NCBI RefSeq assembly: GCF_964355755.1
Contig: NC_092675.1
Coordinates: 2,390,312 to 2,454,311, forward strand
DNA from: Antedon mediterranea
Lineage: Eukaryota > Echinodermata > Crinoidea > Comatulida > Antedonidae
Reading direction: 5' to 3'
DNA length: 64,000 nucleotides
Shown here: positions 12,001 to 46,700 of the stretch, in pieces
How positions within the stretch are numbered: position 1 is the stretch's first letter
Layout: every line of letters starts with the position of its first letter
Notes under the pieces: generated by a model
Seen by the model: the letters and a program-made list of their open reading frames with translations, nothing else
Told to the model about the DNA's origin: nothing
The model's database searches: none
Position numbers and translations under genes: made by a program

Positions 12001-15000
12001 AACATTTAATAACATATTAGATTTCTGTAAAATAAATATAAATTTACTTGGTAGATAGCTATTGTCCATTTTCGAGCTTCGTTATAAATCTTTTCATCAT
12101 TCCAACCTGGTTGCCTTGCAGCAAAATAATCAGCCCAGTAGTTGTGATAACGAAATAGGAGAATACCAAACGTAAGAAGGAATGGGTTTTCGTTGCCACG
12201 AGGATTTCCCAACTCTGAGAAAAGTAATTCAAGTAATCAGAAAACTTGTTATTGTTTAGGATGTAATTGGTTTAGTAGTAGAGCTTGGTGGTTAAGAGCT
12301 TGGTGGTTAAGAGCTTGCCTCTCAAATTCAAAGAAGTTCAATCCTGACATATAGTAGTGTCAGAGTTGTAACTCTTCTACTACACTCCCTAAGCCTCAAA
12401 TGAGACTTAAGTTTATAAGCACGATCAATTATAGTTTATTAAACCTTTTGGCCAGTTTCTTGCTGTAAATGCGTATAACATAAAATAATATATAAATAAA
12501 CAATTGTTGGTGAACATTCAAAGAATTGAATACTTACTGAAAAACCGTTCAGCGTTTCTTAAGGTATGGTTGTGAGCCTCGGCAGGAGGAGGAGGGTTTG
12601 CCATTGGAAGTCCTATATCATTTTCATGAGGATAGTTACCACGATGGCTTCGGCTCAATCTGCCACCATGGAACTCTCGTAGTGCATCAGCCCAAGCCTT
12701 TGAAGTTCCGTAGATTAATCCTCCATCTAAGTAAGGGGTCACCTCATTTAACTAAAATAAGAAACAAAATGATATATGATAATGCATGAACATATGAATA
12801 TCATGATAACAGATAGTGTAAATTGTAATAATTGTAAGATAAAAATTCTGTGTCGATCTATATTGTGTTATTTGTTTAAATTTACACCATGTGATCAACA
12901 AGCAAGACAGTAATCTGATTGTACCCTGGATTCTATAGTAATCCCAGGTTGGGACAACGACTGTGGAAAAAAACAAATATTTCTTTCCTGCTCCATGCTT
13001 TATTTCTTTCCTCCCTCCATTATTATATACTCCACGGTTTTAGTACAACTTGGAATTACTACTACCGTACAATCCGAGACAACATGAAGACATTCTAAAG
13101 TTTTACCTTAGGCCTAATTCCTTTGTCAAGAAATCACGTGATTTAGTACGCATCCTACTTTACTTGTTGTTTTGCCATACAAACCTTTTGTTTGGCCTAC
13201 TCACCTGTTGTCGAGGACTATTTGGAGAGTATCCCGTGTTCATATCATATCTTGTTCTTAAAAATGGCATCTGGAAGTCTTTAGGAGCGTTGGGTATATG
13301 TCCTTCTGGAAGAGGAATATTGAAATACTCTGGTGGGCAGCCTGGTCTCTGAGCATCCAAAATTTCCTCTACAACCTGTTGACCTGCAAAAAGTAAATTA
13401 AAATGTTTACAATAATGCCATAAAAGGCTGAAATAAAAACATTCTTCTATAATTAAATTACTAATACTAATTTAATTTAGATATGTTAACTATGATATTA
13501 ATTATTACAATTATATAAATGACACTTTGCTGGACTGAATGTCATTAAAATGATTTATAAAATGTATTTTATGTTTGACTATAATTCGGAAGTTTATTTA
13601 AATGACACTTGGCTGACCTGGAACTTCGTTGAAACCTTTGCATTATATAATAAATACACAATTCACGGGCCGAACAATAAAAATGTATAATAATTATATT
13701 TTTTTACTTAAAACTTCAGCTTTTGCATATTCTTAGAAAATACCTAAAGTTTAAATCTATTCATATTTGTTACAGTCCAATAAATACTTTCAATTCATTT
13801 TCACACAACATCAACAAATTAAGCATATTTTATCACAGATAACCTTTAGAGCTAATTATAATATCACTGGGACAAAATATTTACCAAAGAACGTCATTAA
13901 AACAGTCCGATTAAGAAAGGAACGGTGCCCCGTTTCTCCCTTCATAATAGCCTCACTAAGTTCCAACGGAGAAGCTCTATTGTGTCCAGACGGTTTGTAG
14001 GAACCATCGGAGTAAGCTGGTGGGACGAGTCTACGGAGTGGCATATCTGTGGTAAAATAAACATAACATTACAAAAAAACATGCATTCTGAAGAAAGTCA
14101 CAAGTACTTAATTTAAATAGAATTGAGCCTTTGGAATATGTCGTAGATTTGAATATGAAAAGAACAATAAGAAGTTTGTAAAAAGAAGCATTAGCCTTTG
14201 AACTTATAGAAAGTTACTTTTGTTACTACAGTCTGGGTAGGCCTACTATTGTATGTCTTGAGCGGTCGCGGTTTTTATGGAATCTTTGTACTGCTTATTT
14301 ATGTTATTCCGATATTATTATATTACACTATCTATCACAGCTTACCTGCAGCACCCCAGTTAGGGTTTGTGGGATTGTTGTACCAGCCGTCATATCCTGG
14401 ATATTCTGTAAAGAGAATCATCAATTATATTGGATAGGCTATTATAATATTTTTGTGGTGGTGATGATGATCTATATTCATAGTATGGTGGTTTGGTAGT
14501 TTTTGGTATGGTTGGTAGTTTTTGGTATGGTTGGTAATTTTGTTGGGATTGATTATGAAGATGAAGTTAGATGAATACCATACTGTATTTACTGATCTGT
14601 CATAGGCGGATTCGAGAAGGTAGAATGGAAACCCGGCCGACCCACCTAATTCAGAAGATGCAATACAAATGAATATAAGTTCATCACTACATTTTACAAT
14701 TTATAGGGTCCACATCACTGTGGTAAGTGTGTCAATAATGATAGAGAAAAGTCCACATCACTGTGGTAACTGTGTCAATAATGATAGAGAAAATATCAAA
14801 TATGCATCATACCTGTATTAAAGTTTTCCTGTTTTGGTTTTGGATGTGAACCTATGGAATTTGTATAGAAAAAAGGATAATGCCATTTATCACTGATGCC
14901 ATCGGGCAAGAGATTATACAAATGACGATTATAGAAATCACGATGGGATATTTTATCACGTGGAAGATCTACAATATACATAACTATACTAATGGATCAT

Positions 15001-17332
15001 ATTATGTATCATTATGTAACTATGTTTTAATTTATACAGTTAAATAGGTATCTGGTAGACTGGCAACAGTCTTCCACATAGAATCTGCTGTCAGCCACAG
15101 AATCGGATGGTTTTAATGCGTATAAATATTTGTTTATGCTTTGTGTAGGCTACTTACACTTGATTTCATCCGAGCCATCACTACAATCCTCATTCCCATC
15201 ACATTTCCACATCCAGGGTATGCAGTCTTGTTCATTCACACATTGGAACTGATATTTATTACATATATCTGTATTAGAAAGTATAATTATATATTATGAC
15301 AGCAGTTACATAAAATAACAGATGGCAGGGTATATATATAAATATAAAGTACTATTGATCAAAATCAATAGACCGACATCGAACAGTATTAGATATTTTT
15401 GCGACGGCTTCAATTGGAATTATATTATAAACCATTCATTAATTTATTTTGAAAATAATATATACAAGAATACCGAACTTTTGAGTTAAAATAACTGCAG
15501 TGAGGCAGTTTGCCTATTCATGTCTCACTATAGTTATTTTAACATCTCTTTTTGTTTTTTTAAAACAGGAAGCCGTAAAACTAGACAGCATTTCTAAAGA
15601 GGTAGAATATGCACCGACCTGTACGGCGAACAGCTATGGCTGACTGAATGATATAAAAACTATAGAGGAACAATAACACACACACACAAGCAATACGATT
15701 AATAAAATAATTCGAAATAGGCTACTTAAGATTCGCTGAAAAGTGTGAATTAGTGAAGCGGGTGTACAGTATAATACAGTCCGTAAAAAGAAGTCATTGT
15801 ATGCTTTCCGAACACCGTCATAATAATGTTACAAATTATATTCATCTTTAGGCAAATTCTGAAATTTGGGTAAATGCAGAAGCTATCACAATGTAGACAT
15901 ACGCCTGTGACCATAATTCAGGTTTTTTCAATTCTTCGTTAACAAAGAAGATTATCGTACAATTGCAAACAAGAACTAGTACTCATATTATTGTAAACGC
16001 AACAATAAGATCTTTGACATTCTTTGGAATTTCATGTAACTATAATAATAGTGTATCATTGGAAGGCTATTGCCGTAATTTAAATAGGCCAAGTGCACTT
16101 TATTTTATCTTCCACAATTAGTATATCACACATTGTGGCAAGAAAGCTGTATTCAAATACTGTACAAAAACAATTTAATAATGTAGGGTAACTTTGTATG
16201 TTTTATATAAATAAAAGCATTATTTATCTCAAACTTGAACCTTCAACTATTAGGATCAAAATAACCATAAATAAGGTTGTTGAAATACATTATATTTTAA
16301 GAAAAAGAGAAAAAAAAAATCACTTATAATTCAATTGTTAGAAATATGTAGTACAATAGGCTACTAACAGCATAAAACTCATTTTTATGTTGCATATACA
16401 ACTAATCCGTCTGTCCCAACAGACATTGTAAAATTTAAAGAACATCTGTGGAATGGGACAGCTGTGTTTGTGAAAGATGTTGATGTTGTTTTTTACTCAA
16501 CAAATAAAACTATGACGACAAATCGACGACATTATTATGCATTACAACTACCGGTGATTACAACAACATTATTATAAAATATATTATTGATAAAATGACA
16601 TCATTCGAACTAGGTTATTGGTGACTGCCCAATTTTTGTTCATATAGTTCACAATCGGTGGAGAAATTTTCTGATGACAAATCACTTTCTTCGGACACAT
16701 AAGCACTATATGACATATGCATGACCTCTTTATACATACATATACCTTTTGTTATAATATTTCCATTGTACACTAGGTAGCCTATGTGGTTACATCAATC
16801 CCATTATGTTAACATATAATGATATAATGCAGTCACTATTTAAAAAAGCAATGAATTTCTTTAAATTAGACCTAATAATATTAAAAGACAATATGGAGGT
16901 GACCAAATTTTACAATATTTAGGCTTTTATGAAGAATGTTGTCTTGTTCCCAAGACTATACCAGCAGAAAAGAAATAGTCAATACATTGAGGGGTTATAA
17001 AAAGGAATACTTTCGAAAGCCTAATTTAATAATTTAAAAATCTAATTTTACATTTGATATCGGCGGCCATCGCTGTACCTGAAACCAACCATAAAATTGT
17101 AAGTATAGGCCTACAGTATTGATTTCTTATTATCATTGTGCTACAATATGTTATCATTTAGCGGCTAACCACGGCTGAATAATTAATGAACTATAACTAT
17201 CTTGGTGTTATTTAACATAGTCAAGTTAATGTTATATTTATATGTTATTTACTAACCTTGCGTTACTGCATATGTTGGGTTCCATAGTAGGCCTATACAT
17301 AGAATTATGACTAGGTCTCTATTATATAACAT
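43..17332 (-). CDS. DUOX: Dual oxidase paralogue A (LDLa-containing Duox), 32 coding exons
   Basis: NADPH-dependent, H2O2-producing transmembrane oxidase. All 32 exons join in frame (4902 nt, about 1633 residues; vertebrate DUOX is about 1550) and start with a signal peptide at the ATG ending at 17332. Order: signal peptide (1-22), LDLa (26-62), linker to 114, peroxidase homology domain (115 to about 690), membrane helix (about 695-720), EF-hand pair (937-948, 973-984), NOX heme core (His 1215/1229 and 1308/1321), FAD motif HPFT (about 1402), NADPH motif GGGIGVTP (about 1469), CGPPGM (about 1602) and C-terminal HHYENF. All introns are GT-AG. The exon sizes match paralogue B closely across the catalytic part. 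It lies about 4 kb downstream of paralogue B, same strand, so tandem duplication is likely. The 3' UTR runs off the window. Identity is secure; exact N-terminal exon use is inferred. Confidence 0.95.
6389..6821 (-). other. DUOX: Duox A exons 20-21: EF-hand pair, both loops degenerate
   Basis: Exons 6593-6821 and 6389-6482. The first loop reads [12 protein letters not shown] and the second [12 protein letters not shown]. In a canonical 12-residue loop, positions 1, 3, 5 and 12 coordinate Ca2+. Here loop 1 has Glu at 3, Phe at 5 and Asp at 12, and loop 2 has Gly at 3. Paralogue B is canonical at all of these. The surrounding helices ([22 protein letters not shown]) are well conserved, so this is a real EF-hand pair with weakened metal ligands. 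Confidence 0.88.
7164..8763 (-). other. DUOX: Duox A exons 16-19: first membrane helix and cytosolic region before the EF-hands
   Basis: Exons 8608-8763, 8226-8348, 7563-7765 and 7164-7349. The first ends the peroxidase domain ([26 protein letters not shown]) and starts a hydrophobic segment ([14 protein letters not shown]) that continues into the second exon ([10 protein letters not shown]) and stops at basic residues ([14 protein letters not shown]). The rest is the cytosolic PH-like region of Duox, ending in [13 protein letters not shown]. The two Cys after the peroxidase domain match the positions that bond to DUOXA in vertebrates, as I recall that work. Confidence 0.88.
11420..11530. repeat. 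Dispersed repeat fragment with TTTATATAGCGCC
   Basis: AATAATAATAATATCC then TTTATATAGCGCC and GTGCTGAACATTATTACCCT resembles the segment at 62175-62260 (AATAATAATAATAATAAC, TTTTTATAGCGC, GAGTGCTCAAGGCG). This type of sequence is common in invertebrate genomes. Located in a Duox A intron. Confidence 0.55.
12277..12440 (+). mobile_element. tRNA-derived SINE-like repeat in Duox A intron
   Basis: AGCTTGGTGGTTAAGAGC resembles the A-box side of a tRNA, and GTTCAATCC about 40 bp later the B box, with tRNA-like text between (TTGCCTCTCAAATTC). A 15-bp piece (GAGCTTGGTGGTTAA) is duplicated at the start. Too damaged to be a functional tRNA. Confidence 0.6.
14708..14793. repeat. 43-bp direct duplication in Duox A intron
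   Basis: Two nearly identical 43-bp units beginning GTCCACATCACTGTGGTAA, at 14708 and 14751. Each unit has a small palindrome (CCACATCACTGTGG). Confidence 0.9.
14813..14968 (-). other. DUOX: Duox A exon 3: unrecognised linker
   Basis: A 156-nt symmetric phase 1-1 exon encoding 52 residues rich in His, Tyr, Asn and Lys (for example [18 protein letters not shown] and HPKPKQENF). It has no cysteine and no recognised domain, and paralogue B has nothing similar. It joins the LDLa module to the peroxidase domain. Splice sites are good (gtag acceptor, gtatga donor) and the frame is open throughout. Confidence 0.7.
15158..15268 (-). other. DUOX: Duox A exon 2: LDL-receptor class A module
   Basis: A 111-nt symmetric (phase 1-1) exon encodes one LDLa module. 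The hallmark [15 protein letters not shown] and SDGSDE motifs are all visible, including the acidic residues that bind Ca2+ in this family. Five cysteines are inside the exon. The sixth would fall exactly at the splice donor (T|gtaagt), and the next exon I recognise completes that codon as Tyr, not Cys. LDLa modules usually bind proteins or lipoproteins outside the cell. Paralogue B has no equivalent exon. Confidence 0.88.
15269..17256 (-). other. Duox A intron 1 (2 kb)
   Basis: Separates the signal-peptide exon from the LDLa exon. I see no further exon-like segment. It holds a foldback near 15485-15543 (GTTAAAATAACT against AGTTATTTTAAC) and a (AC)n run near 15678. Confidence 0.6.
17257..17332 (-). 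other. DUOX: Duox A exon 1: signal peptide
   Basis: A 76-nt exon encodes 25 residues with a hydrophobic core ([10 protein letters not shown]) and a small-residue cleavage context (TYA, then VTQ). It ends in phase 1 at a gttagt donor. The phase agrees with the LDLa exon that follows. No other upstream ATG with a signal sequence was seen. This start places the N-terminal domains outside the cell, as expected for Duox. Confidence 0.82.
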
Positions 17333-21333: not shown

Positions 21334-24300
21334 TTAAAAGTTTTCGAAATGGTGAATAAATGCTGCGCCGTCAAATTTGTTCATTTCTACGCATGCGCTT
21401 TCAACACCATTGGTCATTCCTGGTGGTCCACAGCTAAACACGCCGATCTTGCTCACCTGTAAAAGAATATAGTCAAAAAGTTAATATTTTTTTCACATTT
21501 CCAAGTTTTCAGTTAATTCGAATTGTTTTCAGGAGCAGATAAAATGAAAAAGAACAGACATGCTAATTGTGAGAAAGAGCAAAGCGTTGCGAGAAGAGCA
21601 AAGAGTTGCGAGAAGAGCAAAGAGTTGCGAGAAGAGCAAAGAGTTGCGAGAAAGAGCAAAGCGTTGCGAGAAGAGCAAAGCGTTGCGAGAAAGAGCAAAG
21701 AGTTGCGAGAAAGAGCAAAGCGTTGCGAGAAAGAGCAAAGCGTTGCGAGAAAGAGCAAAGCGTTGCGAGAAAGAGCATAGAGTTGCGAGAAAGAGCAAAG
21801 CGTTGCGAGAAAGAGCAAAGCGTTGCGAGAAAGAGCAAAGAGTTGCGAGAAAGAGCAAAGAGTTGCGAGAAAGAGCAAAGAGTTGCGAGAAAGAGCAAAG
21901 AGTTGCGAGAAAGAGCAAAGAGTTGCGAGAAAGAGCAAAGAGTTGCGAGAAAGGGCAGAGAGTTGCCAGAAAACGGAAAAGAGTTGCCAGAAAACGGAAA
22001 AGAGTTGCGAGAAAGAGCAAAGAGTTGCGAGAAAGAGCAAAGAGTTGCGACTAGAGCAAAGTGCTAGTAGAACAAAGGATCATGGATAATGCACATTTAC
22101 GAGTAGTGTGAAAGTATATGACTAGTACTTACATCTGGATGCTCGTCTTGCAATGAATTAAAGAAGGAAGGTAGATCTGGACGACCGAAATGAGTAGTAG
22201 ATTGAAGTCCAGTGAATAGAGATCGATTGGCGATCTTCTGGAAATGTCTCTCGCAGATGTACTGTAAACAAAAAAAGAAAATTGACATAGGATGACGACA
22301 ACAATGAATGTTAAAACAATATATTCAGTATAAAAGAGCTTTTACAAAACAATTACAATTTTAAAAGTCATGTTTATAAATCTAATTTAAGATTTTTAAG
22401 TGTTTAAAATACTTACCAGCATAGTTGTTCGTAGATCGAATTTCTGGTAGAACTGTGTAATAAAGATATGGGTGCTAACCAAATCAGTTGTGTCCTTCTC
22501 CTCGACCTCTCTGATGATGTCACACAGCCACTCATAATGCTTTTGGGTTCGAGTTACCCAGATAAAGTAAACCTATGAAGAAAGGAAATAAGTGAGAACA
22601 AAAACTAGGCCACTGCACATATCTATATTTGAGCAGAACTACAATGTGTATTCTCGCTGACAGAGGCTCATGTCATAGCATCTAACTCCTGATATTAACT
22701 TAACCTAATCTCTCGCTATACTGCATATGATAAAATGAGAAGACTTGATACTGCACGATGTTTAACGTCTATAGACGTGATACAGCGCGTGTATTGGTAG
22801 CTTTCCAACTATCCTTTATAATCTTTGGTTCTTACCTTTTTACAAGGGAATCTGGTGTTACTGCTAGCTTTGTTCACAATATCTTTCAAGATTGATGCAA
22901 ATGGAGTGACACCAATTCCACCTCCTACAAGTACAGCAACCTCAAACTGATACCAATCTTGATGGCCCTCACCATATGGTCCGTCAATGTACAACTATAG
23001 ATAAAAACAAAACATTTGATTATTTTTGTAGATCAAACAATTAGGCCTACGATTTATAACCTGTTATGTATGTTTAATTCATATAACTAAGACATAATGT
23101 GTCATTGTTACGTAATTCAATTTATATCTAGGTTTGACAACATTTTAGACATACCTTGGGGTATGGATGTTCACGGACAGTATTTGGATCATAGGTATGT
23201 CGGATGTTAGTTGTCCATGGTCCAACAGCTCGGATGTGGAGACTTAGATGGTCCTCATGTGGAGCAGACGTCAAGGTAAATGGATGGTATTCACCACTGC
23301 CTAGAGTCTTGCATGCAACACGTACCCACTGTCCTGATTTGTACTCGAAAGAAGTTGGTCGTTTGAACGTCAACGCTGTAACATCTACGAATAATGAAGA
23401 AATTGTTATGAAACAGAAGTAAAAATTGTTTCGTGTACCGCTACACCTGTATTAGGAACTGGACGATTTTATACATCCAACAAAACTGTTTGTACCTATC
23501 TGTATGCAAGGATACCTGTAGGCCTACCAAGACTAGATATAACGAGCCTTTGTTCTGAATGATACGTACCAGACGGTAACAGTTCTGCTTTGAAGACGGC
23601 AATCTCTGCTTTCTTTCGGCTGATGCTAACCAACTTATCAAGTGTAAACAAGATGGCGGGACCAAGGAAGAAGAACCAGAAGAATGGAGGCTGCACCAAT
23701 CGACCACTTCCGTGTAGAACCATCAATATGTAGAATATAACGTACATATTATGAGTCAGCCAAAACAGGTTGAAGACATTTCGACGAGCATATTGGGTTG
23801 CAAACACGTACATGACACAAGCCAGGAGTACCAACAGAACGCCAGTAAAACCTGGAAATAAAAAATTAAATTTCACTTTCTGCATTTTCTTTAAATCGGA
23901 ACAAAACGCAAACAATGTATCGTTCAAATCTATATTGCTCTTATTTGTATAACTACCCGGTTGTATTGCGTACAGTGCGCATACACGGTAGACTATCTTG
24001 ACAAATTGTAATTAGGCGGTAAAACCTACCAGTAATAGTCTGCCAGCACCAGTAGTGAAACTTTGGAAGTACATGCGACCTGTGGAAGAAATCTCTAAAC
24101 AGGCAGGTAAGATCGTTTGGAGGTTGACTGGCGATGTGATAGAAATTGATTCCATGACCAATTGTGTGCATCACTAAAAAATATAAACAATAAAATATTA
24201 ATAATCAAACGTGATTTTGTATAAATCTCAGACAACTTAATGGCTTGGCTACTTTACGACGCGGTACTAGACTACATGCAGTCTAATAAAAACATAAGTA

Positions 24301-31600: not shown

Positions 31601-34600
31601 TACCTGTTCTCTTGGTACGCTTGGATTGAAACCTGTATTCATATCATAACGTGATCTAAGAAATGGCATTTCATCCAGAGGAATGTATTTTCTGTAACGA
31701 TGACCTGATGGAATTTTAATATTAAAATATTCTGGTGGACATCCGGCTCTTTGAGCATCAAGGATTTCTTCTACAACTTGCTGACCTGAAAGATGAACGG
31801 AATACAAATATTTTTTTCCCCAAAAGAATGAACGTAAACACAATGCAATTGTGTGTGATTGATCAACTGTCATGTTTTACGCAATTGTGTTGGTCCAAGT
31901 GGAAACCAAGCTTTAATACTTCCAACTTCTGAACCAATCTCTATACTGTATCTCAACATAAGGAATTATATGTTGATCAATAGGCAAACTCTGTAATACA
32001 GTATCACATGTGGAGCTTCAATTTGTTTCGATACCTACAAATATAGACAGTACTGTATCATTGTGTATTAAAATAATTTAACTATACCAAAGAATGTCAT
32101 GAAAGCTGTTCTCTTGAGTAATGATCCACTGCCAGTTTCTCCTTTCATGGTAGCATCGCTGATGTCAAATGGGTTTGGCCTATCTGCTCCCGATGGATTG
32201 TATACACCATCAACATAAGCTGGAGGTACTCTTCTCGTCAGAGCCATTTCTAAAAACAAACATAAAACATTTAATTCACACGATCAAATACAAGAGCCAT
32301 CTTTATCATCAAATGTGATGTGCCCATATATGGAAACGATGACGTCAAATCACTACCATATTTAGGCATATCACACTTTTTTTTGTCAAACTATTTTGAT
32401 AATGTCACTAGAGTTTAAAACATTTACAAAAAATACCTGCGCCGCCCCAATCCGGATGAGCTAAGTTGTTGTACCAGCCATCGTAACCTTCGTACTCCGC
32501 AATATACTCTTCCTCCTCCGAATCATATCCATGGTCATCTTCGCCATCTAAAACAAAAATGTATTAAAATATGATAATTATATCAAATATATTATTAGTA
32601 TTGTGATGAAAGTTACTAAAGTCATCAAGAGTGAAATTCACTCTTTCTTGATTAAACTAAACACTCCATTACGCATTGTGTTTATATACACGATGTGCAG
32701 ACGTTCCCTTGTACAAAAATTAAGATGATTAAATCAATAATATAAGAAATCAACAGATAAATAAGATTATATAAGTATTCAATACGCAAAGCTATATTTA
32801 GCCTAACGCATCGGCTTTTTATTCTCCAGACTCTATGATAGATAATACATTGTTATAAACGCATGATTTTTTATTTCCATTTTCACCAAAACGAAAGATA
32901 GATATTATTTCCATTCCAGTAGTGTATTACATTATTTTTATAAGCATATGAATATGAACTGACATACATCCATAAGTATATAGGGCACATTTTAAGGTTA
33001 GCGGAAAGAAAGACGGTAAACACCAATATTAAAAGAGAATGTTTCGTTAAACAGGCAGTACCCAAAAGAAAATTAGCCATTATGAACTTAGCAACACAAT
33101 GAAAGAATGGACAACGCTACGAAACATATTCTCTTTGCATATACATACATTATTATTAGCAATACACATACATTTAAGCATGAAATATGAATGCTTTTTA
33201 TACATTATCATCTTATATTATACATATATTATATTATCATCGCCCAGCAAAACTCCGGAGTTTGCCAACACACACGTACAGACAAAACACAGATATGGGG
33301 CCTAAAGTCATGCAGCGTTTGCCCACACACCCATACAGACAAAACACAGGTATGGGGCCTAAACTCATGCAGCGTTTGCCCACACACGTACAGACAAAAC
33401 ACTGGTGTGATGCCTAAACTCTAGAGTTTTGCATTTTGACAACAATATATAATACTGTAGGCCTACAGTAGATAAAACTGTGGAAAAAATGAAAAGCGAA
33501 GCTTTAACAAACAGATTTATGAATAATATACCATGGACAAAATATTTTCCATAAATATATCAAGTAAAGTGACATCCTCTAAACTTCAATACGTATGTGA
33601 TGCTATGTATAATTGATGTAAAGATGAAAATAAAGTGATACATTCATTGATTATCTTTCTTCATCGTTGGAGTTAGTATATTAATGTACATTATTATCTT
33701 CAATACATTAGTATGATAAATATATATATTCTCTTTATTAAAAAAATATTGACCAATTTACATCTGTGGCAAAATTGCATTAAAAAAATTGTAAAAAAAA
33801 ACATTAAAAAGTGCAAGAATCAAAACAGCATTAAAGGGAAAAAATCTGGTAAAAAACACATACAAAGTTAAAAAGGCAAGAAATTTGTCGGAAGTTGGCA
33901 TGGAGGGTAAAAAATTAGTGTGTTATAAATTAATTTAGTATAAGTATACCTTCTTTTGGGTTATTAATATCCTTTTTTTAAACACAATTACGAATAGGTA
34001 ATAAATAATGCAAAAATTTGGTGTAAAACATTAGCAAATTGGATTATACTTAGTTATATTATTATACAGTATATTCATGTTCGAACCTGCGACTCGTTGT
34101 TTGCAGAGCAAAGCAAGTTTAACTTCACAATAGTACTGGCTGGATTACCAAATAAAAACCAATGTGTATGCGTACCGGATTTGTATACAATGTGTTAAGC
34201 ATGTAGCGGTACGGTATGCTTTTAACTGAGTTTTACTAAAAAAGCAAGGATCATGAAATGATTGGATGAAAAAGCAAGCGTCCTAGAAGCATGGATGAGA
34301 ATATTACCTCCTTGTTTTGTTGTTATTTCTGTTTGTTTTGTAGTAGACCTACTTTCAGTAGTAACGACTCCACTTTTAGTGGTGACGTCACCTTGAGTGG
34401 TGGCGTCACTTTGAGTAGTGACGTCATTTCGAGTAGTGACGTTACTTTGAGTAGACTGAGCCGATGTCGTTGCAGGTGGTGTTGCTATACAACAAACATT
34501 TTAAAACCAAACTATTATCATTGTTGAGTGTATCATAAACTCTTTTATTCTATGCCTATCTAAAGATAACAAGCTCACATCTTTCACAATGACGGAAGGA

Positions 34601-36354
34601 TCATTATAAGTTATATCCTTAATAACTGTGAACCGTAAACAGGCAAACAAATTATTTTGTTGATTGTTTTGCCAACTTATGGCAAAGCTCCATTATCATC
34701 TCAATTATTTAGTAAGATCGAATTTTATAATATCAAAAAGCTGTAAATACAACCAATTTGTTGGTTTTTAAGACAAACAGCATCCTTAAGCAAAGCAATG
34801 CTTGTTTCTATGTGATATAATACCTGTGCTTCCTTGTACTACCGTAGTATAACTATCTGTGGTACCGGTTTTGGTCGTCGGATCTTGTAACGTTTGTGCA
34901 TTGCTCAACACTATATAATAAAGGTGACGTATAGATGAACCATGGTTCATTTGTTAGTAGAGACCTACACTAAAGCTAGTTCTTTGTATATAATTACATG
35001 GGCTTCCGTTGATCATTGCAGTATTAATTTGTGCTACTGTACATACACGTTTAGTTAAATGTTAAGTGCAAGGCGGACATTCGCCCTGGTATAAAGTTAC
35101 ATTGCTGTAGGGTACCGACATCAATGTAAACGTAGCGTAATACTGGACCATTGAGAATCAAAGTTGACCCGCGCATGAACACGTGACCATGCGTTTTATC
35201 AATTTGTAAGCGCGCACGTTAAAGTACACCGTATGTTATACTTCTCTCCGAAAGTATGGCAAGCTGTTCTATCCACTTTTTAACATCTGAATTTAAATTA
35301 AGTGGAAAAAATCCCACTTAATTTAGGACTATAAGGTAATAAAACAACATATTCCACAATGCAAAAAAAAATCTATAAAAAACTTTAGTCTTTACGCATC
35401 CATGAGCGAGGGCGCTATATAGGCTATCTATTATCAAAAGCAGTAGGAAGTAGGGCCAGTAATACAGTAGACGAAATTAATTTCCGTTTCACTCGTTCTG
35501 ACGTATGATCACGTACTTAGATATCACTCTAATCTAAATGATCAAACCGAACCCTTCTATCTGCAATGAGAGTTAAGGCACCTTATATGAGTTCCGACCT
35601 AAATGAGTCTACTATTGGTTTTGATACGGCATAATTTTATTTCAATCAAATCCACAAAATAATTATGAACATAGGACGTCTACCTAGATACCGTTGCAAT
35701 ACATGCATGCATATATACTTTCAGTTTTACAAACTGTATTGTATGGGCCTACTTCGTTTACATTATTATGCATGTATTATACATATATAAAATAATTATT
35801 AACATTAACAATATATAATTTTTACATTTATACAATTTCCAAATCCAAGTAAAATATACATTGAGAAAGTAAAAGTAATAATGAAACTGGCGATTCTATT
35901 TTTAAATACCCAACTCATCCTACATTAACCCCTCTCCCCTCCCTTACCTCATCTCCCTCTCAAATTCCCTCTACCGCATATATGTATAGTATGGTTTTCA
36001 TTTCGTATAACCTCATCCTCTGTATTACGCAAAAAAATGTTATTGTAATATACCACTATATCCTATACAATTGTAGAGTACCAGGAAATACGGTAAAACT
36101 ATCTTTTAACTGACTTCATTGCCGAAAGTCATAACAGTAGAGCAACAGGGGTCACATTCCTCCCAAGAATTAAATTAACCGTGCACACACACCGTTTGTA
36201 AAGCTAATTCCAATGATCTTTAAAATACCTGCAACTCACTCACAATGCATGACCCGTTTATTTGTCTTACTCTACAAGAATAAAATCAGTTTAACTTACG
36301 TGAACACGTCACTAAGAAGCCGAAGAACACTATGTGTTTGATGTACAACCTCAT
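21334..36354 (-). CDS. DUOX: Dual oxidase paralogue B (mucin-stalk Duox), 30 coding exons
   Basis: Second complete Duox, the one head-to-head with DuoxA. The 30 exons join in frame (5016 nt, about 1671 residues). Order: signal peptide (1-23), Thr/Ser-rich stalk (about 24-106), acidic stretch [14 protein letters not shown], peroxidase homology domain (from about 128), membrane helix (in exons 27888-28043 and 27303-27422), two canonical EF-hands (959-970, 995-1006), NOX core (His 1253/1267 and 1346/1359), HPFT (about 1440), GGGIGVTP (about 1507), CGPPGM (about 1640), ending HHFENF. One intron starts with GC instead of GT. Two introns of paralogue A are missing. With canonical EF-hands and the head-to-head DuoxA neighbour, this copy looks closer to the ancestral, Ca2+-regulated form. 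Confidence 0.95.
21570..22055. repeat. 20-bp minisatellite inside the last intron of Duox B
   Basis: About 24 units of GCGAGAAAGAGCAAAGAGTT with 19-bp and GCGTT variants, purine-rich on the plus strand. It fills most of the intron between the exons 22133-22261 and 21334-21456. The unit contains no stop in any of several frames, which produces long apparent reading frames on both strands that are not genes. Confidence 0.95.
25801..26619 (-). other. DUOX: Duox B: canonical EF-hand pair
   Basis: Exons 26205-26619 and 25801-25894. The 415-nt exon corresponds to two exons of paralogue A fused (186 + 229 nt). Loops read [12 protein letters not shown] and [12 protein letters not shown], with Asp, Asp/Asn, Ser and Glu at the Ca2+-ligand positions. 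This matches the Ca2+-activated behaviour of the Duox family and contrasts with the altered loops in paralogue A. Confidence 0.92.
26807..28043 (-). other. DUOX: Duox B: end of peroxidase domain, first membrane helix, cytosolic region
   Basis: Exons 27888-28043, 27303-27422 and 26807-27012. The first ends the outer domain with [12 protein letters not shown] and [13 protein letters not shown], again two Cys, then a hydrophobic helix ([22 protein letters not shown] across the junction of two exons, in two pieces) stopped by RNRRK. A very basic segment ([13 protein letters not shown]) follows, then the PH-like region ending IEKEYDL, the same ending as in paralogue A. Confidence 0.88.
28359..32547 (-). 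other. DUOX: Duox B: acidic lead and peroxidase homology domain
   Basis: Exons 32437-32547, 32088-32249, 31604-31785, 31244-31466, 30835-31007, 30529-30604, 30267-30363, 29931-30045, 29426-29522, 29069-29256, 28727-28908 and 28359-28477. The first exon carries the acidic run and then [14 protein letters not shown]. Shared motifs include [68 protein letters not shown] and GDRFWFEN. As in paralogue A, proximal His (RFGHT) and RGDE are kept while the distal His is replaced in FGQQVVEE. Sizes of nine of the twelve exons differ from paralogue A by at most 6 nt. Confidence 0.9.
32285..32410. mobile_element. MITE family 1, copy in Duox B intron (degraded)
   Basis: Shares AATGTGATGTGCCCATATAT and CACTACCATATTTAGGCATA with copies at 40245, 45000 and 56721. 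Terminal inverted repeats are poorly kept here. Confidence 0.65.
33255..33425. repeat. 57-bp tandem repeat, 3 copies, flanked by an inverted repeat
   Basis: Three units containing CACACGTACAGACAAAACAC or close variants and GCAGCGTTTGCC lie in a Duox B intron. The array is bracketed by CAAAACTC (about 33248) and GAGTTTTG (about 33424), which are inverse of each other and could form a hairpin. Confidence 0.8.
34308..34910 (-). other. DUOX: Duox B exons 2-3: Thr/Ser-rich mucin-like stalk
   Basis: Exons 34824-34910 (29 codons) and 34308-34484 (59 codons), both symmetric phase 1-1. The second contains imperfect six-residue repeats ([18 protein letters not shown] and so on) encoded by an 18-bp DNA repeat. 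The segment is about one third Thr with Ser, Pro and Gln and no Cys, suggesting a dense O-glycosylated extracellular stalk. It sits where paralogue A has its LDLa module. Confidence 0.8.
36300..36354 (-). other. DUOX: Duox B exon 1: signal peptide
   Basis: A 55-nt exon ending in phase 1 at a gtaagt donor. Joined to the next exon it reads [18 protein letters not shown], a classic hydrophobic core with a good cleavage site before Gln. This fixes the start codon and places the divergent DuoxA start 1.4 kb away. Confidence 0.85.
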
Positions 36355-37751: not shown

Positions 37752-40700
37752 ATGGCAACTCCATATGCATGTGAGAGTGACGTTAGTGAATGCCTAGGCT
37801 ATGACAATGATGTTATAGGATTTGCAGTTTTGAGAAACAAACCTGCTCCGACGGCTTATGCAGCCAATCCTACCCCTGTTCGAGTTGATGTTTTGGAAGT
37901 AGGATTAATCTTTGCGGCAGTTCTCCTTTTCGTATCATACCTCATCATTTTACCAGGAATCAGAGGATGGGAGGTAAGTTTAATAATATTTTTCTAATAT
38001 TATTTTTAGATCGTTTTAAAATTATACAATGAATGAAATCTACTATAAATAATTGAATATCGTATGTATCATTTTCTTTTTTATTCAACACGTGTTTATT
38101 TATTTACATAATAATATAATATTAGGCCTACATAAACCATTAATTGTTTTAAGCATATCTAAGCCTATTTTTAAGTAGTCGAAAAAGATTTATTGTACAA
38201 ATGAGTACTACTCTAGGCGTAAATGTTTTGACCATCTTAAGATTTGACCAATCGTCGGCATGCAACACCCAATGGCAACGCAACTTTAAGACTGTGGTAT
38301 AGTACTGTTATGGTACTGTTGCTCTATATAGTTGTATGGAATAAACAATTAAACTACCATTTAATAAAACATTGTAGGCGAGCTTTGGAAACATTAATTT
38401 TAAATTATGCGAACAGTAGGCATACTACTAGTTTTGAATAATGTATTATATTCTAGTAGTAGACAGCCCCTGGTTGTATCTTGGAATTCCATTTCTATAG
38501 GCCAAACTGATCATTTCTTTTCAACAATTGTACTGTATGTGGACAGACACTACTAACGACGTCATGTACATGTAACAATAGATGTGTTACCAATGTCGCT
38601 CTCATTAAAGTAATTCATTTAAAATAAAAACTTGCTTTCGAAACTCTATCTTTATGTTTTTACACAGATAATCTCTTTGTTCTGTAGGTGATTACGTCGT
38701 AATAGATTTAAAACAATGTAACAAACAATAAAACAATAAAGAGGTAAAAAAAACCAACAACAATGGAATTGACGTTTCTATACGGCTTAACTAATTCCAA
38801 TCTAAGCAACTTCATCTATCTCAACTCAGTGACGTCATATACAAAATATTATAGGACCTAAAACAAATACAATTATTTTGTTAAAAACTATGAACTATGA
38901 AAATACAACAAAACCAAAATATAAATAAATTATATATAGGGCCTAGGCATAGTGTGTTTACCTAATTAAAAGAACGAAAAACAATGTCATGAACACAGTA
39001 CAGATAACACATCAGTATAATATAGATATAGATAGATATTAATTAGTATCATGAAGGCAACCCAAATGTGAATTCACATTCGAAACCACCATTGGGCCGG
39101 CCGAAAAAAAAACCCACAAATTTAATTAATTATTCAGTCGTGTAATTGTTTGTTTACAGTAAAAAAATATAGATGAGTATGATAAATAAATTTATAATTA
39201 CTGGATGATTGAATGTGAATGTAGTTAAATTAATGTCAATTACAAACACATATTAATCTTTACCTCGCAAATCGGATTTTTACAATAAGGCAATACAGTA
39301 TTACAATATGGCCTATTCGTTGGTGACTAAAAATGTTTACGTGTACTTTTACTGCTGTATACTGTAGGCATATTGTTTATTTTACAGTTCTTCTTTCTTT
39401 ATTTGGTATTGATTTGCGATTACATTGTTAAAGAAAGCATTGTGGTTTGATCACATTTTAAGTTATATAAATAAATCATCCGTACCTCGCAAGTCATGTT
39501 TATACGAATAGGTCTAAAAGGCGGCCAAGAACACGGAAATGATTTTAAAAAAAAAACATCAAGTGGTGTGTAGTTACCTGATTTGACATGTCAGGGGAAG
39601 AGTGAAATTCAATCCTAATGGATTGACACACGTTCATGAACGGCTGTTTTTCAAGAATCTAAACTATGATTGAACCCTTGAGCTATGATTAAACAAGAAA
39701 TATTTCTTACAAAAAACGCCGCGTAACTTTTTGACTGGACAGTTGTAAGAACAGTCTTCATTAATCTAATATAATAGGTCGGCCAATCAAAACGCAAGTG
39801 AACAATTGGGACTTTACTTGTGATTTATGTCATTGGCCTGTCAGCACAGTCGTTTCTTTCTAGAATTAAACGCACAAATTTGTATTGGGAATAATGTATG
39901 TGGTTATTACTATCGCATTTAGGTATTGATAATAATAATAATATGGCTATTGAATATATAATTACTGTCTGTAGAATAACATTTATACATTTTCGGTTCG
40001 CGATGAAAAGTTATATGAATGGATTTGTAATAGGTATTTATAATAATAGTATATGGGTTGTATTATTGCTAAGCTATCACCAAATCGCGTTATAACATTA
40101 TTTCTCAGGGTTTTTTGCACCATTGATCAATACCAAACGCGTATCGGTATTATGGTTTTTAATGAATCATTACATTAATAAAAATACCCAATTAAATCAA
40201 TCGCGTCAGTCCAATTCCGACTTATGTTTCGATCACATAGTTCTGTGTCTACACTGTCCCAACTAGTTTAACAAAAAAAGTGTGATGTGCCCAAATATGG
40301 TAGTGATATGCCCGATTATCGTAGTGATATGACATCGTCATGTCTATATAATATGGGCACATCATATTTTATTTAGTTTGATAGTATAGACAGAGCTTAA
40401 GGATTATATTAAAAAAATGTTTTCTTACATTTTGAACGGAAGTATTTATTTGTTTATAAGCCCAATTTTCCAGTCTTAATTTTACATTTTGAAAAAAAGT
40501 ATTTATTTGTTTATAAGCCCAATTTTCCAGTCTTAATTTTACATTTTGAAAAAAAGTATTTTATTTGTTGATAAGCCCAACTGTGCAGTCTTATTTTACA
40601 TTTTGAACGAAAGTATTTATTTGTTGATAAGCCCAATTTTGCAGTCTTATTTTACATTTTAAACGAAAGTATTTATTTGTTGATAAGCCGAATTTTCCAG

Positions 40701-43700
40701 TTTAATAATAATGACCCCTTCCACAGTGCTTATACCATATACATTTTACATGATATTGACCGTGGGTTCTTTACGCCTCTGATGCATTTGTTTTTATTGT
40801 ACCTTTTTAATAAATTATTATATGTTTAGGCCTAATCACACCCAATTTAATGAAACGGTCAGATTCCGATTTCAATTGAACGAAAGTAGTACTGTATTTA
40901 TTATTCATTGATAAGCCAAGGGTCCCATGGCGTTAGCCGATATCTTGAGCATTTGACTCTTGTAACACAAATCATTCTTCAAAATCTAAAGAAAGAACCT
41001 CACACGTCTTTTTTGTGAGTGATACACTATGGATATGCCCACGGAAATAATATGTGGACATTGCAAACAATCATAGGCCTACAGTAACAAACATAACATG
41101 GCTAATAAGCATAACATTCAGACTTGCTTGTTTTCTAGTGGATTTTTATTTACTTTAGCATGTAGAATAAAACTAGTAACAGTGGCTATATTAATAATTA
41201 TACTGATTATCCTTGATGTTATCGCGTCTAATAATAAAATATTTTGTTGTTGATAAGCCCAATTTTTCAGCCTTGATTTTACATTTTGAACGAAAGTATT
41301 TATTTGTTGATAAGCCCAATTTTGCAGTCTTAATAATGACCCTTCCACAGTGCATTTTACATGATATTGACCGAGGGTTTTTACGCCTCTATAGGCACTG
41401 ATCAATACCATAATTAATGTACTTTTTTAAATGAATATTGAAATGTTTCAACACTCCCAGATTTCCTCATCTTTATCGTTTCAAAAATTAATTAAATAAT
41501 TTTCAGTGTATCACCGGGCGGTTTGGAATTTATTTCTATGCCTGTTGTGTTTATATATATAATATTAAGTATAATTATGAATTCACCAACACTTTCAGGC
41601 CCGGGGCCGAGTTGTAGACCAGACTTCCATGCACAGCCACATGTTAAGGAATATGAATCTCTTTATGATTTTAATATGGTTCGAAATGATATTACACAAC
41701 AACGATTAGACAGCAACTGTGCAAGAGTCAAACTAATAAAATCGGAATGATCAATTAATTGAACATTTACAGCATAAGGCCCATACACTAGGACGATAAC
41801 TATCGACGATAAATAGACAAATGTGCATTTTTAATACATAAACCAAAAGAAATATAAACAATTCCTTTGATGAAAATTATATTTTCACACGTCCAATCAA
41901 ATGACGTCATGATTAGTAAGACCAATAATATCGTGACAATACAGCGATTTTATTGTTTTTATTTATCATGACGTCATTTGATTGGAATTTGAAAAACATT
42001 ATTTTTATCAAAGACAGCATAAATGATTATCCTATAGGTCTAGAACGAAAACCTTTCTAATTTCTTTTGGTTTATGTAAAAAAAATGCATGCTATATATT
42101 TATCGTCTGTCGTTATCGTCATAGTGTAATTGGGCCTTTATACAAAAAAAATAAATTGATTACGAAGTTACATGTCATTTTCACCTATCACCAAAAAACT
42201 AACCTTTTCAAAACTAATTAATTGTTACGAAGCCAATTTATATTATATATTTCATTAAAACTGAACTTTACGGTAAATGAAGAGTAAGTATCAGTTAATA
42301 TGAATAATATAACTAGTAGGTCTATGAACTTGCGTCCAGACACAGAACTGTGACATTACTATCATAAATGTTGAAACCACTTATAAAACCTTTTTTTTAA
42401 AGAAAATATAATTGTGTTAGGAGAAGACTAATAAACAAATAGATAATGTTCAAACCTTTTTCTGGATTAATTAATGGAGCAGGCGTTCCTAATAATCTTC
42501 TGTAGACTGATTGTTCACCTTCTGACGATAATTGATTGGACCCCCCACGGCATCTGATAACCAACAAAAAATTTACGAGGACTGTTTCAATGATTTAATA
42601 TCTGACGGCGTATTATTATAACATTGGCCTAGATTGAAAGTCAAAGAAAGTCATTGTAAATACCTCCCTTTATGTTGACAGAGCCAAAATAAAGTTTTGA
42701 CCATTATCGAATGATTATTTGACAGTGACTTATTATAATACCGCCCTGGTTGACAGCAAAAACGAAGTTATTATTTATTGATCAAGATTTTACAGATTTC
42801 CGTCTACATCTCAATAATACTGTATTATCAGCAAAGGCTTTCATATAGACTCTCTTCTCCCAGACGTTTTTTGGGTCCAGCAGCTACCTATAAATTATAG
42901 TCGAGTTTCCAAATTCACAAAACTGTCAGCCTTAGATACTAAAGCTACCGCTATGAAACAGCTTATTAATGAATGTGTCCTCCTGGGACATAGCTGGCTA
43001 GAGCCGCGGCGCGAAAAAACATGAATATTGTAATGTCATATTATAATATTGAAAGGATTTGGCAAAAACTGGAAAATAAATGCACTTGTCTCTGTCTTTT
43101 GTTTTTAATAGCGTTTGTGGTCTTTTATCCGGGTCACAACCAGCATCTTCATTGGTACGGCTATAATGGGTAAGTTTACTTTAATTTAGTCGTGATTTAA
43201 TATAGCCAAAATTAACGACAATCTAGTTTACTGTACCATCAGGTGATTACCCTGATTGTACACAATTTCTATTCTTCCTATTTAGCCTACAGTATTTCTG
43301 TACAGATTATTTTGTGTGTATCGATTATCCCGGAAAAGTTCAATATAAATTACATATTTTTATTACAATTATAATTATGATACTCAATACCGGAAGTTGA
43401 TGAAAAATAAATATTAGTTTGTGTGCAGTTTAATAGGTCTATATATTCCACTGTGTAAACGTTACGATAGGCACCACCTTCATGACAATGTTAAAGTCAA
43501 CACTTTATTGATAAGGCCTAATAACTATATATACATGTTGCGTGTTTATGTGTATATTAAAGATCATTTAGGCATAATATAGATAACGATACTTCAAGTA
43601 ATGTTTGATTATTGCTCGAATTCCGACTATACCGGTATTCACAAGGATAATGATAGGAAGGGGAACTATGAGGTTTTTGATACCGGATATCATCATGGTA

Positions 43701-46700
43701 TATTCTCAATACTGTTCTATATTATGATAATTTCTATCGAGTACAGTATCATATTCACAGGCAATTTCGTAATACTGCACATATGTGTTTGCCATGTTAT
43801 GCCTGTATCATAAAAGTTAAGAATTTGCTTTTATATTAAAACAATAACTTCCATTTCTAGAATCCCTCGCATCTTGCCTCATTGTTAACATTTTTTGTTT
43901 TAAATAAATAAATACCGTACGTCGCCATTATCACTTTACAGAAATTAGAGGTAGTAGTGTATTTTAAAATGGATTTTATATTGAAGAAAATAAATAATAT
44001 TGATAGTCCCCGGTAAGATATAAATATAAACAGATTAGGCCTAATGAACTAATTTACTGTTTTGAAGAGCTGATCTGCGAAGTCGTGAAGGTGTAAATTC
44101 TTTAGGGCCTCTTCTTTGCAAAGTTTCTTTACTGTGAAAGTTAGTCATTAATTTGATGATGCTGTACTATAATATATGATATAACACTATGCTTCTACAG
44201 TATCGATCTATGGACAAGAGTGGGAGGTTGCTTCCCTACACAAAGTAGAGACAGCGTACAAGTCGTTCTTCCGGGAGGAAATACACGATGCCGAAATAGA
44301 AGTCAAAGTCGGTCTCAATGCTGTCAACATCACGCTTAAAAGTAAGAACTATGTTTCACTAGGCCTAAGAAAGTCAGTGAAAACTACAATATAGGCCTAA
44401 CAATATCGTAATTATAGGTAAAAAGACAAAAATGGACAAACTCAAGAGATATATGGTGACGTCACGTTTGTAAACATAATTGTGATTTCATATTTAACAT
44501 AAACTACAAGACTTCACAATATACGAGGCTCTATCACTTACAAGCCAGAAGTTAATTATTAATATTAGTATGTCTGTGAATAATTATTATTATATATTAC
44601 ACTTATTTTTCGAAATAGCGAATCCCATCCAACCGTTTATAGACGATGAACACGCAGAATTTCCTAATGAAATCATTAATTATAATGAGCGATTTCATTT
44701 CTACGGTAGCCAGAGACGTAATGGATTCGGGCCTTTTGGTAAGTGTAGCAAAGTGGTATATTTTAGTAGAAATTGTGAGAAAAACTTGTTTTGATTCCTG
44801 ATGCCCAGCAGATTAATATGTAAATGACCAACTGTTACCTCGTTATGAGTAATATGAAACTTGTTGCATAACGTAAAATTCTATATCGATATATAAAATC
44901 AAAACTAACCGAAGGCCTACGGTATTTTAACATATATTCATTATTTTATACTGAATAATAACGATAACGTAGATGTTAAACAATATGGATTCTCCAACCT
45001 TAAGCTCTGTCTACACTATCAAACAAGTTTGACAACAAAATGTGATGTGCCAAAATATGGTAGTGATATTCCCCAAATATAGTAGTGATATGTCCATATA
45101 TATGCACATCACATTTCTTTTGTCACATAAAGTTTGATAGTGTAGGCAGAGCATTAAACTCTCATATTTTAAATTCAGATTCTAACAGATGAAAGACTAG
45201 AGGAACTTAATTGCCCCTCAGATATATATCTATTCTTCAGCATAGGTGTGTAGTACTACTAATGACCCCCATTGAACCATCGTCACACCTTTCCCGACGA
45301 AGATTAAGGTATACCACAAACATATACCACAATTACATTCTTAAATAAGTGTTATTGTTATATGTTAATCCTACAGCTGGACGTATCAATCGTGAATTTC
45401 GTGCGGCTCAATGGCGCGGCATGCCTTTCCCCATATTGTGGATTGCTGAGTATTTTGTCCTAGATGGTGAGAAGATCCGTTGGGGAAGATCGTACCGCCA
45501 TGCTGGTTTCTATACCTATATTATGTTATGGTAAGACAACTTATTGGTACAGTATTAAACCGTAAAAACTAATATAAATTGTGGTTAATAATAATGCTAC
45601 ACCCAACCCCCCACATTTCCCCGTAAAACAAATGAAGGGAAATGCATTTTACACAGCGGCTAACTCATATTCAGAACAAATCCCTCAGGCCAATGAACAC
45701 TTTGTTACAAAAAGGCTGCCCCTTACTAGAGGTTCTATAGGCCTAATAATAATTAATTGGTACTCACTTTGTATCATTGGGACTCTTCAATTTCAAGGTG
45801 CGTCAAAACTATAGTTAATAAAAATTCTTACGTCAGCACAAAACAACAGTTAAACATAATACACAGGATCGACAGTAAGAATACACGAGTAGGCCTATTT
45901 TGAAGAAGCAGAGATCGCCTATTCCATACTTTACAGAGCGGCTAGCAGTATTATGAAAAATGTGGTTATTTTGTAGGACGGCGTTCCCATTGTGGCTCCT
46001 GTCAAACATCTTGTTCTTTATGGTTCTGCGATACGGAGCATATTTCCTAATGTTAACTGGAGGAAGCCTTCTAACTGGCAACATCCTATACAGTAGCATT
46101 CGGTATGGAAGTCAACCACTCAGAATACCTTTCGTTACAGAGGACAATCCCGCAGATGGACTTGAATTTCACAAGGGTCCACATTTCATGCTATGTCTTT
46201 TCACCGGTAAGGAGTAAACAATTATTAAAAATCACTAGATATCATAATATTGGGCTACAACACTCTAAAATAGCACACAACCATTGGTTTATTTGTATGT
46301 ATGTATTGAGCATTCTATGCCAATACTTAAGAATCAATGTTCATGAATTCTAGATTAAATAACGGATTAATTTTATATAATATTAATTCATAGGTTTGAT
46401 ATCATTCATTGGCGGAATAATTATTTTGATAATGGATATGAAATTCCCACAAGAAATTGCAACATTTTTCAACGTTGATGTTCTCCAAGATTTTGAAGAT
46501 ACTTACGCGGAAGATAAAGAAGCGTTCGAGAATAATGGCGTACAAGAACACGCCAATGTGCCGGTAAGATTTGCATTTCAGCTGCTATAAAACATTTTGG
46601 CACGCATAGCGTGTCATACCTATGCTTAATCTGGAATAACGAGCCAAGTCTATTATTAGTACTTCGTTCAAAACTTTAAGATGTAATTTAACGTATCTAA

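Follow-up and report, generated by a model that had tools for sequence, protein, structure and literature searches.

Contig C6 (NC_092675.1) of the crinoid Antedon mediterranea carries three dual oxidase genes, Duox-A, Duox-B and Duox-C, in a tandem array with all copies on one strand. The subject of this analysis is Duox-B, and in particular an exon near its 5' end that encodes a module of the LDL-receptor class A (LDLa) type and that, once joined to the following exon, holds five cysteines where six would be expected. The window, meaning the whole 64,000-nucleotide stretch that was analysed, corresponds to C6 2390312-2454311, and wider searches covered a genome of 354 Mb in 18 contigs. The features of the window are collected in Table 1, in window coordinates. 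The predicted Duox-B protein begins with a signal peptide followed by LDLa, a linker, an animal haem peroxidase domain, EF-hands and a NOX core composed of ferric reductase and the FAD- and NAD-binding parts. Its gene comprises the signal-peptide exon, the LDLa exon and 30 more, all on the minus strand and in one frame, with introns 1-5, which separate the signal-peptide, LDLa, linker and first three peroxidase exons, all in phase 1. A first-pass annotation of this DNA had proposed a chain of signal peptide, LDLa and peroxidase exons, and the coordinates, strand, frame and phases that it gave these exons all hold. The chain itself also stands, except that LDLa and peroxidase are not in direct contact, since a linker of 52 amino acids without a Pfam match intervenes. 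The acceptors labelled p9, p15 and p20 score poorly and the inner boundaries of the model may therefore be partly off.

Table 1. Features of the Duox-B region and its neighbours (window coordinates; a slash marks the exon end).
Feature	Position	Strand	Remarks
Duox-B gene model, 32 exons, 1633 aa	43..17332	-	placed by hand; spliced in frame to a single stop
Signal-peptide exon	17257..17332	-	ends in phase 1; hydrophobic N-terminus, judged by eye
LDLa exon, 111 nt	15158..15268	-	phase 1-1; PF00057 match; five cysteines once joined to linker
Would-be sixth-cysteine codon TGT, split T/GT	15156..15158	-	from sequence; read-through gives Cys-Lys-stop
LDLa exon splice donor GTAAGT	15152..15157	-	from sequence
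Linker exon, 52 codons	14813..14968	-	phase 1-1; cysteine-free; without a Pfam match
First peroxidase exon	14346..14405	-	phase 1-1; start phase equal in Duox-A and Duox-C
Third peroxidase exon (p4)	13205..13383	-	LDLa joined here regains the cysteine (T+GT)
Duox-C signal-peptide exon	36300..36354	-	ends in phase 1
Duox-C Thr/Ser-rich, mucin-like open stretch, 177 nt	34308..34484	-	compatible with phase 1-1; splice-like ends; putative exon
Duox-C first peroxidase exon	32437..32547	-	starts in phase 1
DuoxA maturation-factor gene	37752..46211	+	PF10204 matches; divergent from Duox-C, ~1.4 kb away

By its peroxidase domain, EF-hands and NOX core, the predicted Duox-B protein is a dual oxidase. 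Pfam places the peroxidase domain near the N-terminus (PF03098, residues 116-655, E 2.7e-148) and matches PF01794, PF08022 and PF08030 in the NOX core. Between the two, around residues 962-1033, the EF-hand families PF13405, PF13499 and PF00036 score above cut-off. The top two matches in the Protein Data Bank (PDB) are DUOX1 chains, with human DUOX1 reaching 1378.6 bits. When set beside animal dual oxidases (7d3e, human DUOX1, and 6wxr, mouse DUOX1), Duox-B is alike in its peroxidase, EF-hands, NOX core, haem-histidine spacing, PHD cysteines and the presence of a DuoxA gene nearby. It differs from human DUOX1 by the LDLa exon and the linker that stand between the signal peptide and the peroxidase. 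The human match starts only at Duox-B residue 106, beyond the LDLa module and most of the linker, which backs the earlier claim that the arrangement is unlike that of vertebrate Duox as far as the human protein is concerned. In the NOX core, the two pairs of haem histidines, 1215/1229 and 1308/1321, have the same spacings (14 and 13) as those of human DUOX1, given as H1130/H1144 and H1225/H1238 in PMC7794343. Two peculiarities of the peroxidase region (exons within 14046-11293) may be recorded at this point. Within residues 187-196 the histidine of an RFGHT motif is retained in Duox-B and is missing from human DUOX1 in the alignment, and at residue 419 Duox-B reads VVEEI where two other aligned peroxidases carry histidine (LDHDL, IHNM).

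The LDLa exon is recognizable by several measures. An N-terminal piece that includes it scores 42.5 bits with PF00057 (cut-off 24.1, E 7.7e-11), and in the full-length protein the match spans residues 28-60 with 37.5 bits. PDB matches to this part include modules of LRP2 and VLDLR, which the Duox-B exon resembles in sequence, in cysteines 1 to 5 and in the acidic cage; on reading the sequence, the W..D..D..DE pattern, taken here to be the Ca2+-cage motif of LDLa modules, is present. Whereas LRP2 and VLDLR carry such modules in arrays on a receptor, Duox-B would carry a single one on an enzyme, with the sixth cysteine gone after the join to the linker. A motif scan of both strands of 84 kb returned this exon as the sole LDLa-like frame, and a stricter pattern matched once in the real sequence as against 0 in 60 triplet-block shuffles. 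The reading of the exon as part of a neighbouring LDLa gene was rejected, since these scans gave no second LDLa-like frame in the 84 kb and the last match to Duox-C ends near 21337. With regard to splicing, 19 of the 31 acceptors of the Duox-B gene score lower than the LDLa acceptor and 6 of 31 score lower than the linker acceptor, while the LDLa donor, which has T rather than G at position -1, outscores 4 of 31 donors. The codon score of the exon is 0.06 in the coding frame and -0.08 and -0.79 in the others, and just 0.9% of 156-base intron stretches equal it. Taken together, the splice-site and codon scores lend moderate support, short of proof, to the LDLa exon as a genuine exon.

What sets this module apart is the way in which its exon ends. 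The last bases are ATC AAG T, followed directly by GTAAGT, so that the TGT codon is cut as T/GT and becomes TAT, encoding tyrosine, upon joining to the linker. In the 1633-residue protein the LDLa part has five cysteines (28, 35, 41, 48 and 54) and falls short of six. The earlier description of a Duox gene with an N-terminal LDLa exon in frame is borne out, and the role that it proposed, of an intact Ca2+-binding ligand module, is weakened: the cage residues are present and the sixth cysteine is lost. An alternative intron 2 acceptor was rejected as the source of the missing residue, since all 12 AG sites of that intron fail to give T+GT or T+GC. A cryptic exon was rejected too, as a scan of introns 2 and 3 detected 0 that would restore the cysteine in either. 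Joining LDLa directly to the first peroxidase exon creates a stop (T+AA). Full inclusion (1633 aa), LDLa skipping (1596 aa) and skipping of both LDLa and linker (1544 aa) all keep an open frame. The sixth cysteine is absent in every examined join that keeps the whole peroxidase domain; it is regained solely when the donor is read through or when a join leaves out some of that domain. In addition to the join to p4 discussed below, those to p8 (1299 aa), p14 (1036 aa) and p19 (737 aa) restore the cysteine in an open frame and all cut into the enzyme; judging from their predicted products, none of the four is likely to give a working enzyme. Read-through of the donor yields 64 amino acids with a cysteine at the usual SDE-x-x-C place followed by lysine and a stop, and this version covers positions 3-37 of the 37 in the PF00057 profile.

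The cysteines of an LDLa module pair 1-3, 2-5 and 4-6. Given the known 4-6 pairing, loss of the sixth would leave the fourth free, and the unpaired cysteine of the Duox-B module is presumably residue 48. Outside the module and up to the first membrane helix, the ectodomain has cysteines at 204, 433, 460, 663 and 683, each aligned with a cysteine of human DUOX1. Among them, C204 is the counterpart in the alignment of human C118, for which PMC7794343 gives C1165, in the membrane domain, as the partner. Since all other ectodomain cysteines match human DUOX1, one LDLa cysteine is left without an obvious partner.

To place the exon end in context, other LDLa exons of the genome serve as a control. 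From 360 candidates, 150 were scored and 135 LDLa matches were listed, 134 of them other than the Duox-B exon itself. The control consists of 60 of these 134, taken down the ranked list with long-open-frame matches and some others omitted without a fixed rule, and its donors were read from genomic DNA. The sixth cysteine is encoded in 59 of the 60. A phase-1 GTR site lies 3' of that codon in 57 of these 59, exactly one base after it in 39, and the two that have the cysteine without such a downstream site are L021 and L025. Unlike in Duox-B, in none of the 59 does a GTRAG run across the sixth-cysteine codon. The sole control exon without a sixth cysteine, L005 (G000:C6:10611650-10611980), has a donor that seems to leave a different phase, and it may be broken. 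Many LDLa exons of this genome share the 1-1 phase of the Duox-B exon, and GTAAGT is the most frequent donor among them. The Duox-B exon is one codon shorter than the commonest form, and exons with the endings TGT T/GTAAGT (L060) and TGC T/GTAAGT (L048) exist; dropping one TGT unit from an end of that kind would yield the present Duox-B end. Several further LDLa exons of this genome likewise meet a stop soon after the donor. Of the 135 LDLa matches listed, the Duox-B exon alone has a peroxidase match within 300 kb.

Turning to the paralogues, Duox-A, Duox-B and Duox-C are alike in having phase 1 both at the end of the signal-peptide exon and at the start of the first peroxidase exon. They differ in what lies between. 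In Duox-A, which falls outside the window, the signal-peptide exon (C6:2384845-2384962) is joined straight to the first peroxidase exon. In Duox-C, which extends from 36354 to about 21337, a Thr/Ser-rich open stretch occupies the corresponding place, and neither gene has the LDLa exon of Duox-B. A phase-1 junction that is common to all three genes and is filled differently in each is the pattern expected from exon shuffling at a single site. As a separate observation, the first peroxidase exon of Duox-A (L002, C6:2384251-2384307) encodes EYPSYDGLGHSLHNMWGLR, which lacks the DGWYNN motif kept in Duox-B, Duox-C and human DUOX1.

The explanation favored here, with a probability of roughly 0.55, is that the LDLa exon is a shuffled cassette used as a five-cysteine appendage of the oxidase. 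A symmetrical cassette, phase 1 at both ends, would have lodged in the phase-1 intron behind the signal peptide. That intron would act as an insertion slot, filled with nothing in Duox-A, with the Thr-rich stretch in Duox-C and with LDLa plus linker in Duox-B. With the exon included, an oxidase that produces H2O2 would bear an LDLa-like module at its N-terminus, outside the cell. A change that shortened the exon end by the equivalent of one codon, possibly a deletion of 3 nt, would have removed the sixth cysteine with the frame kept, leaving a five-cysteine module that retains its calcium-cage residues and probably has one cysteine unpaired. The module would most likely work as an N-terminal appendage close to the two-fold contact in the Duox dimer. 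Residues R50 and E41 of human DUOX1, which take part in inter-protomer contacts according to PMC7794343, are close to the start of the peroxidase domain. In exon-including transcripts the appendage would be either an LDLa with a looser fold or a site at which an intermolecular disulfide forms, and skipping of the exon, which leaves an open frame, would give an ordinary Duox. A more elaborate form of the disulfide suggestion, which must be considered highly unlikely, is that the five-cysteine LDLa works as a redox handle. The freed cysteine at the outer end of an H2O2-producing dimer would form an intermolecular disulfide, its partner being the other protomer, DuoxA or a matrix protein. The enzyme would thereby be locked in place by its own product, and alternative splicing of the symmetrical exon would determine whether or not the oxidase is tethered.

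Several points weigh against a working five-cysteine appendage. No LDLa was found in Duox-A or Duox-C, and the module is therefore not a general feature of Duox in this genome. The codon score of the LDLa exon lies under those of all six other exons scored (0.19 to 0.62). The exon is a predicted one, read from the genomic sequence of a single species. Secreted domains usually fold poorly when they contain an unpaired cysteine, which argues for skipping or decay of LDLa. Skipping and decay are the substance of a rival account, tentative and rather unlikely, in which the cassette is mostly silent and the working Duox-B consists of signal peptide, with or without linker, and peroxidase. Loss of the sixth cysteine in the linker join speaks for this account, and skipping is neutral with respect to frame whether or not the linker is lost as well. 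Duox-A provides a precedent for a signal peptide spliced straight onto the first peroxidase exon, and the weak LDLa donor, without G at -1, fits the same account. A long-silent exon would be expected to have decayed further, however, and the rest of this module is intact, with an open frame, five cysteines, the acidic cage, a clear Pfam match and an ordinary acceptor.

The remaining alternatives restore the sixth cysteine. The 64-residue read-through product could be a separate secreted LDLa peptide with six cysteines, made by retention of intron 2 or by polyadenylation within it, where an ATTAAA is found, with Duox-B as the other product of the same promoter. The placement of its cysteine, the stop that follows and its nearly complete profile match speak for such a peptide. 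Yet a T ahead of a GT donor always reads TGT, and the cysteine comes free; stops soon after the donor and the GTAAGT donor are, as the control indicates, ordinary for LDLa exons here, and ATTAAA is frequent by chance in AT-rich introns, all of which make the peptide improbable. More improbable still is a canonical LDLa, fully folded with six cysteines and binding Ca2+, by which Duox would be tethered to matrix, lipoprotein or a partner, as the first-pass annotation had suggested. The PF00057 match, the cage residues and the likeness to LRP2 and VLDLR modules are in its favor. So is the join of LDLa to the third peroxidase exon, which is open to the end, regains the cysteine and gives 1507 aa, so that a six-cysteine LDLa could exist after all, a further point against the five-cysteine appendage. 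That form is shorter by 126 residues, since it lacks the linker together with about 74 codons at the start of the peroxidase exons, and probably would not fold without the beginning of its peroxidase domain. The joins that spare the domain give tyrosine (linker) or a stop (first peroxidase exon), and the contrast with the 59 of 60 control exons in which the codon is unsplit counts against a canonical module as well. From the sequence, tethering by such a module appears weakly supported.

With respect to the literature, full-text searches, in which hits were judged by titles and abstract openings and most subscription journals were outside the scope, found no Duox-LDLa fusion. Within the same scope, a search on LDLa modules in which a cysteine is absent or unpaired listed nothing on Duox. 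Papers on NOX/Duox evolution describe Duox as peroxidase plus EF-hands plus NOX (PMC1940245, PMC9524095, PMC9421330), and the term LDL has 0 occurrences in their main texts. This negative result does not show that the LDLa-Duox architecture is new, and a prior report may exist. The exon arrangement of LDLa and Duox-B is real and unusual, and the sixth-cysteine defect makes canonical tethering doubtful. The arrangement matters since the placement of a peroxide-producing enzyme decides what gets oxidized. Three tandem Duox copies that differ at one phase-1 site would be a natural setting in which to test how extracellular modules are acquired by an oxidase, and the split sixth-cysteine codon provides a clear molecular test of whether a five-cysteine, LDLa-derived module can work.

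A few minor observations concern the linker and the neighbouring genes. A genome search with the linker and the first peroxidase exon gave 3 matches, one to the linker and two to first peroxidase exons (Duox-B and Duox-C), and no copy of the linker elsewhere in the genome. PDB matches to the linker (14813-14968, minus strand) consist of one beta-propeller repeat motif in designed proteins and one PQQ-named chain. A beta-propeller assignment was rejected, as the matches depend on that single repeated motif and Pfam finds nothing. In the DuoxA gene, the N-terminal part encoded by the first exon contains two cysteines (MATPYACESDVSECL...) ahead of the point where the match to the DuoxA profile (PF10204) begins; the human DuoxA partner is not known to have cysteines there. 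Lastly, a dense repeat at 21513-22089 of the window is open in several frames on both strands and is probably intronic, since it lies between two coding matches of Duox-C.

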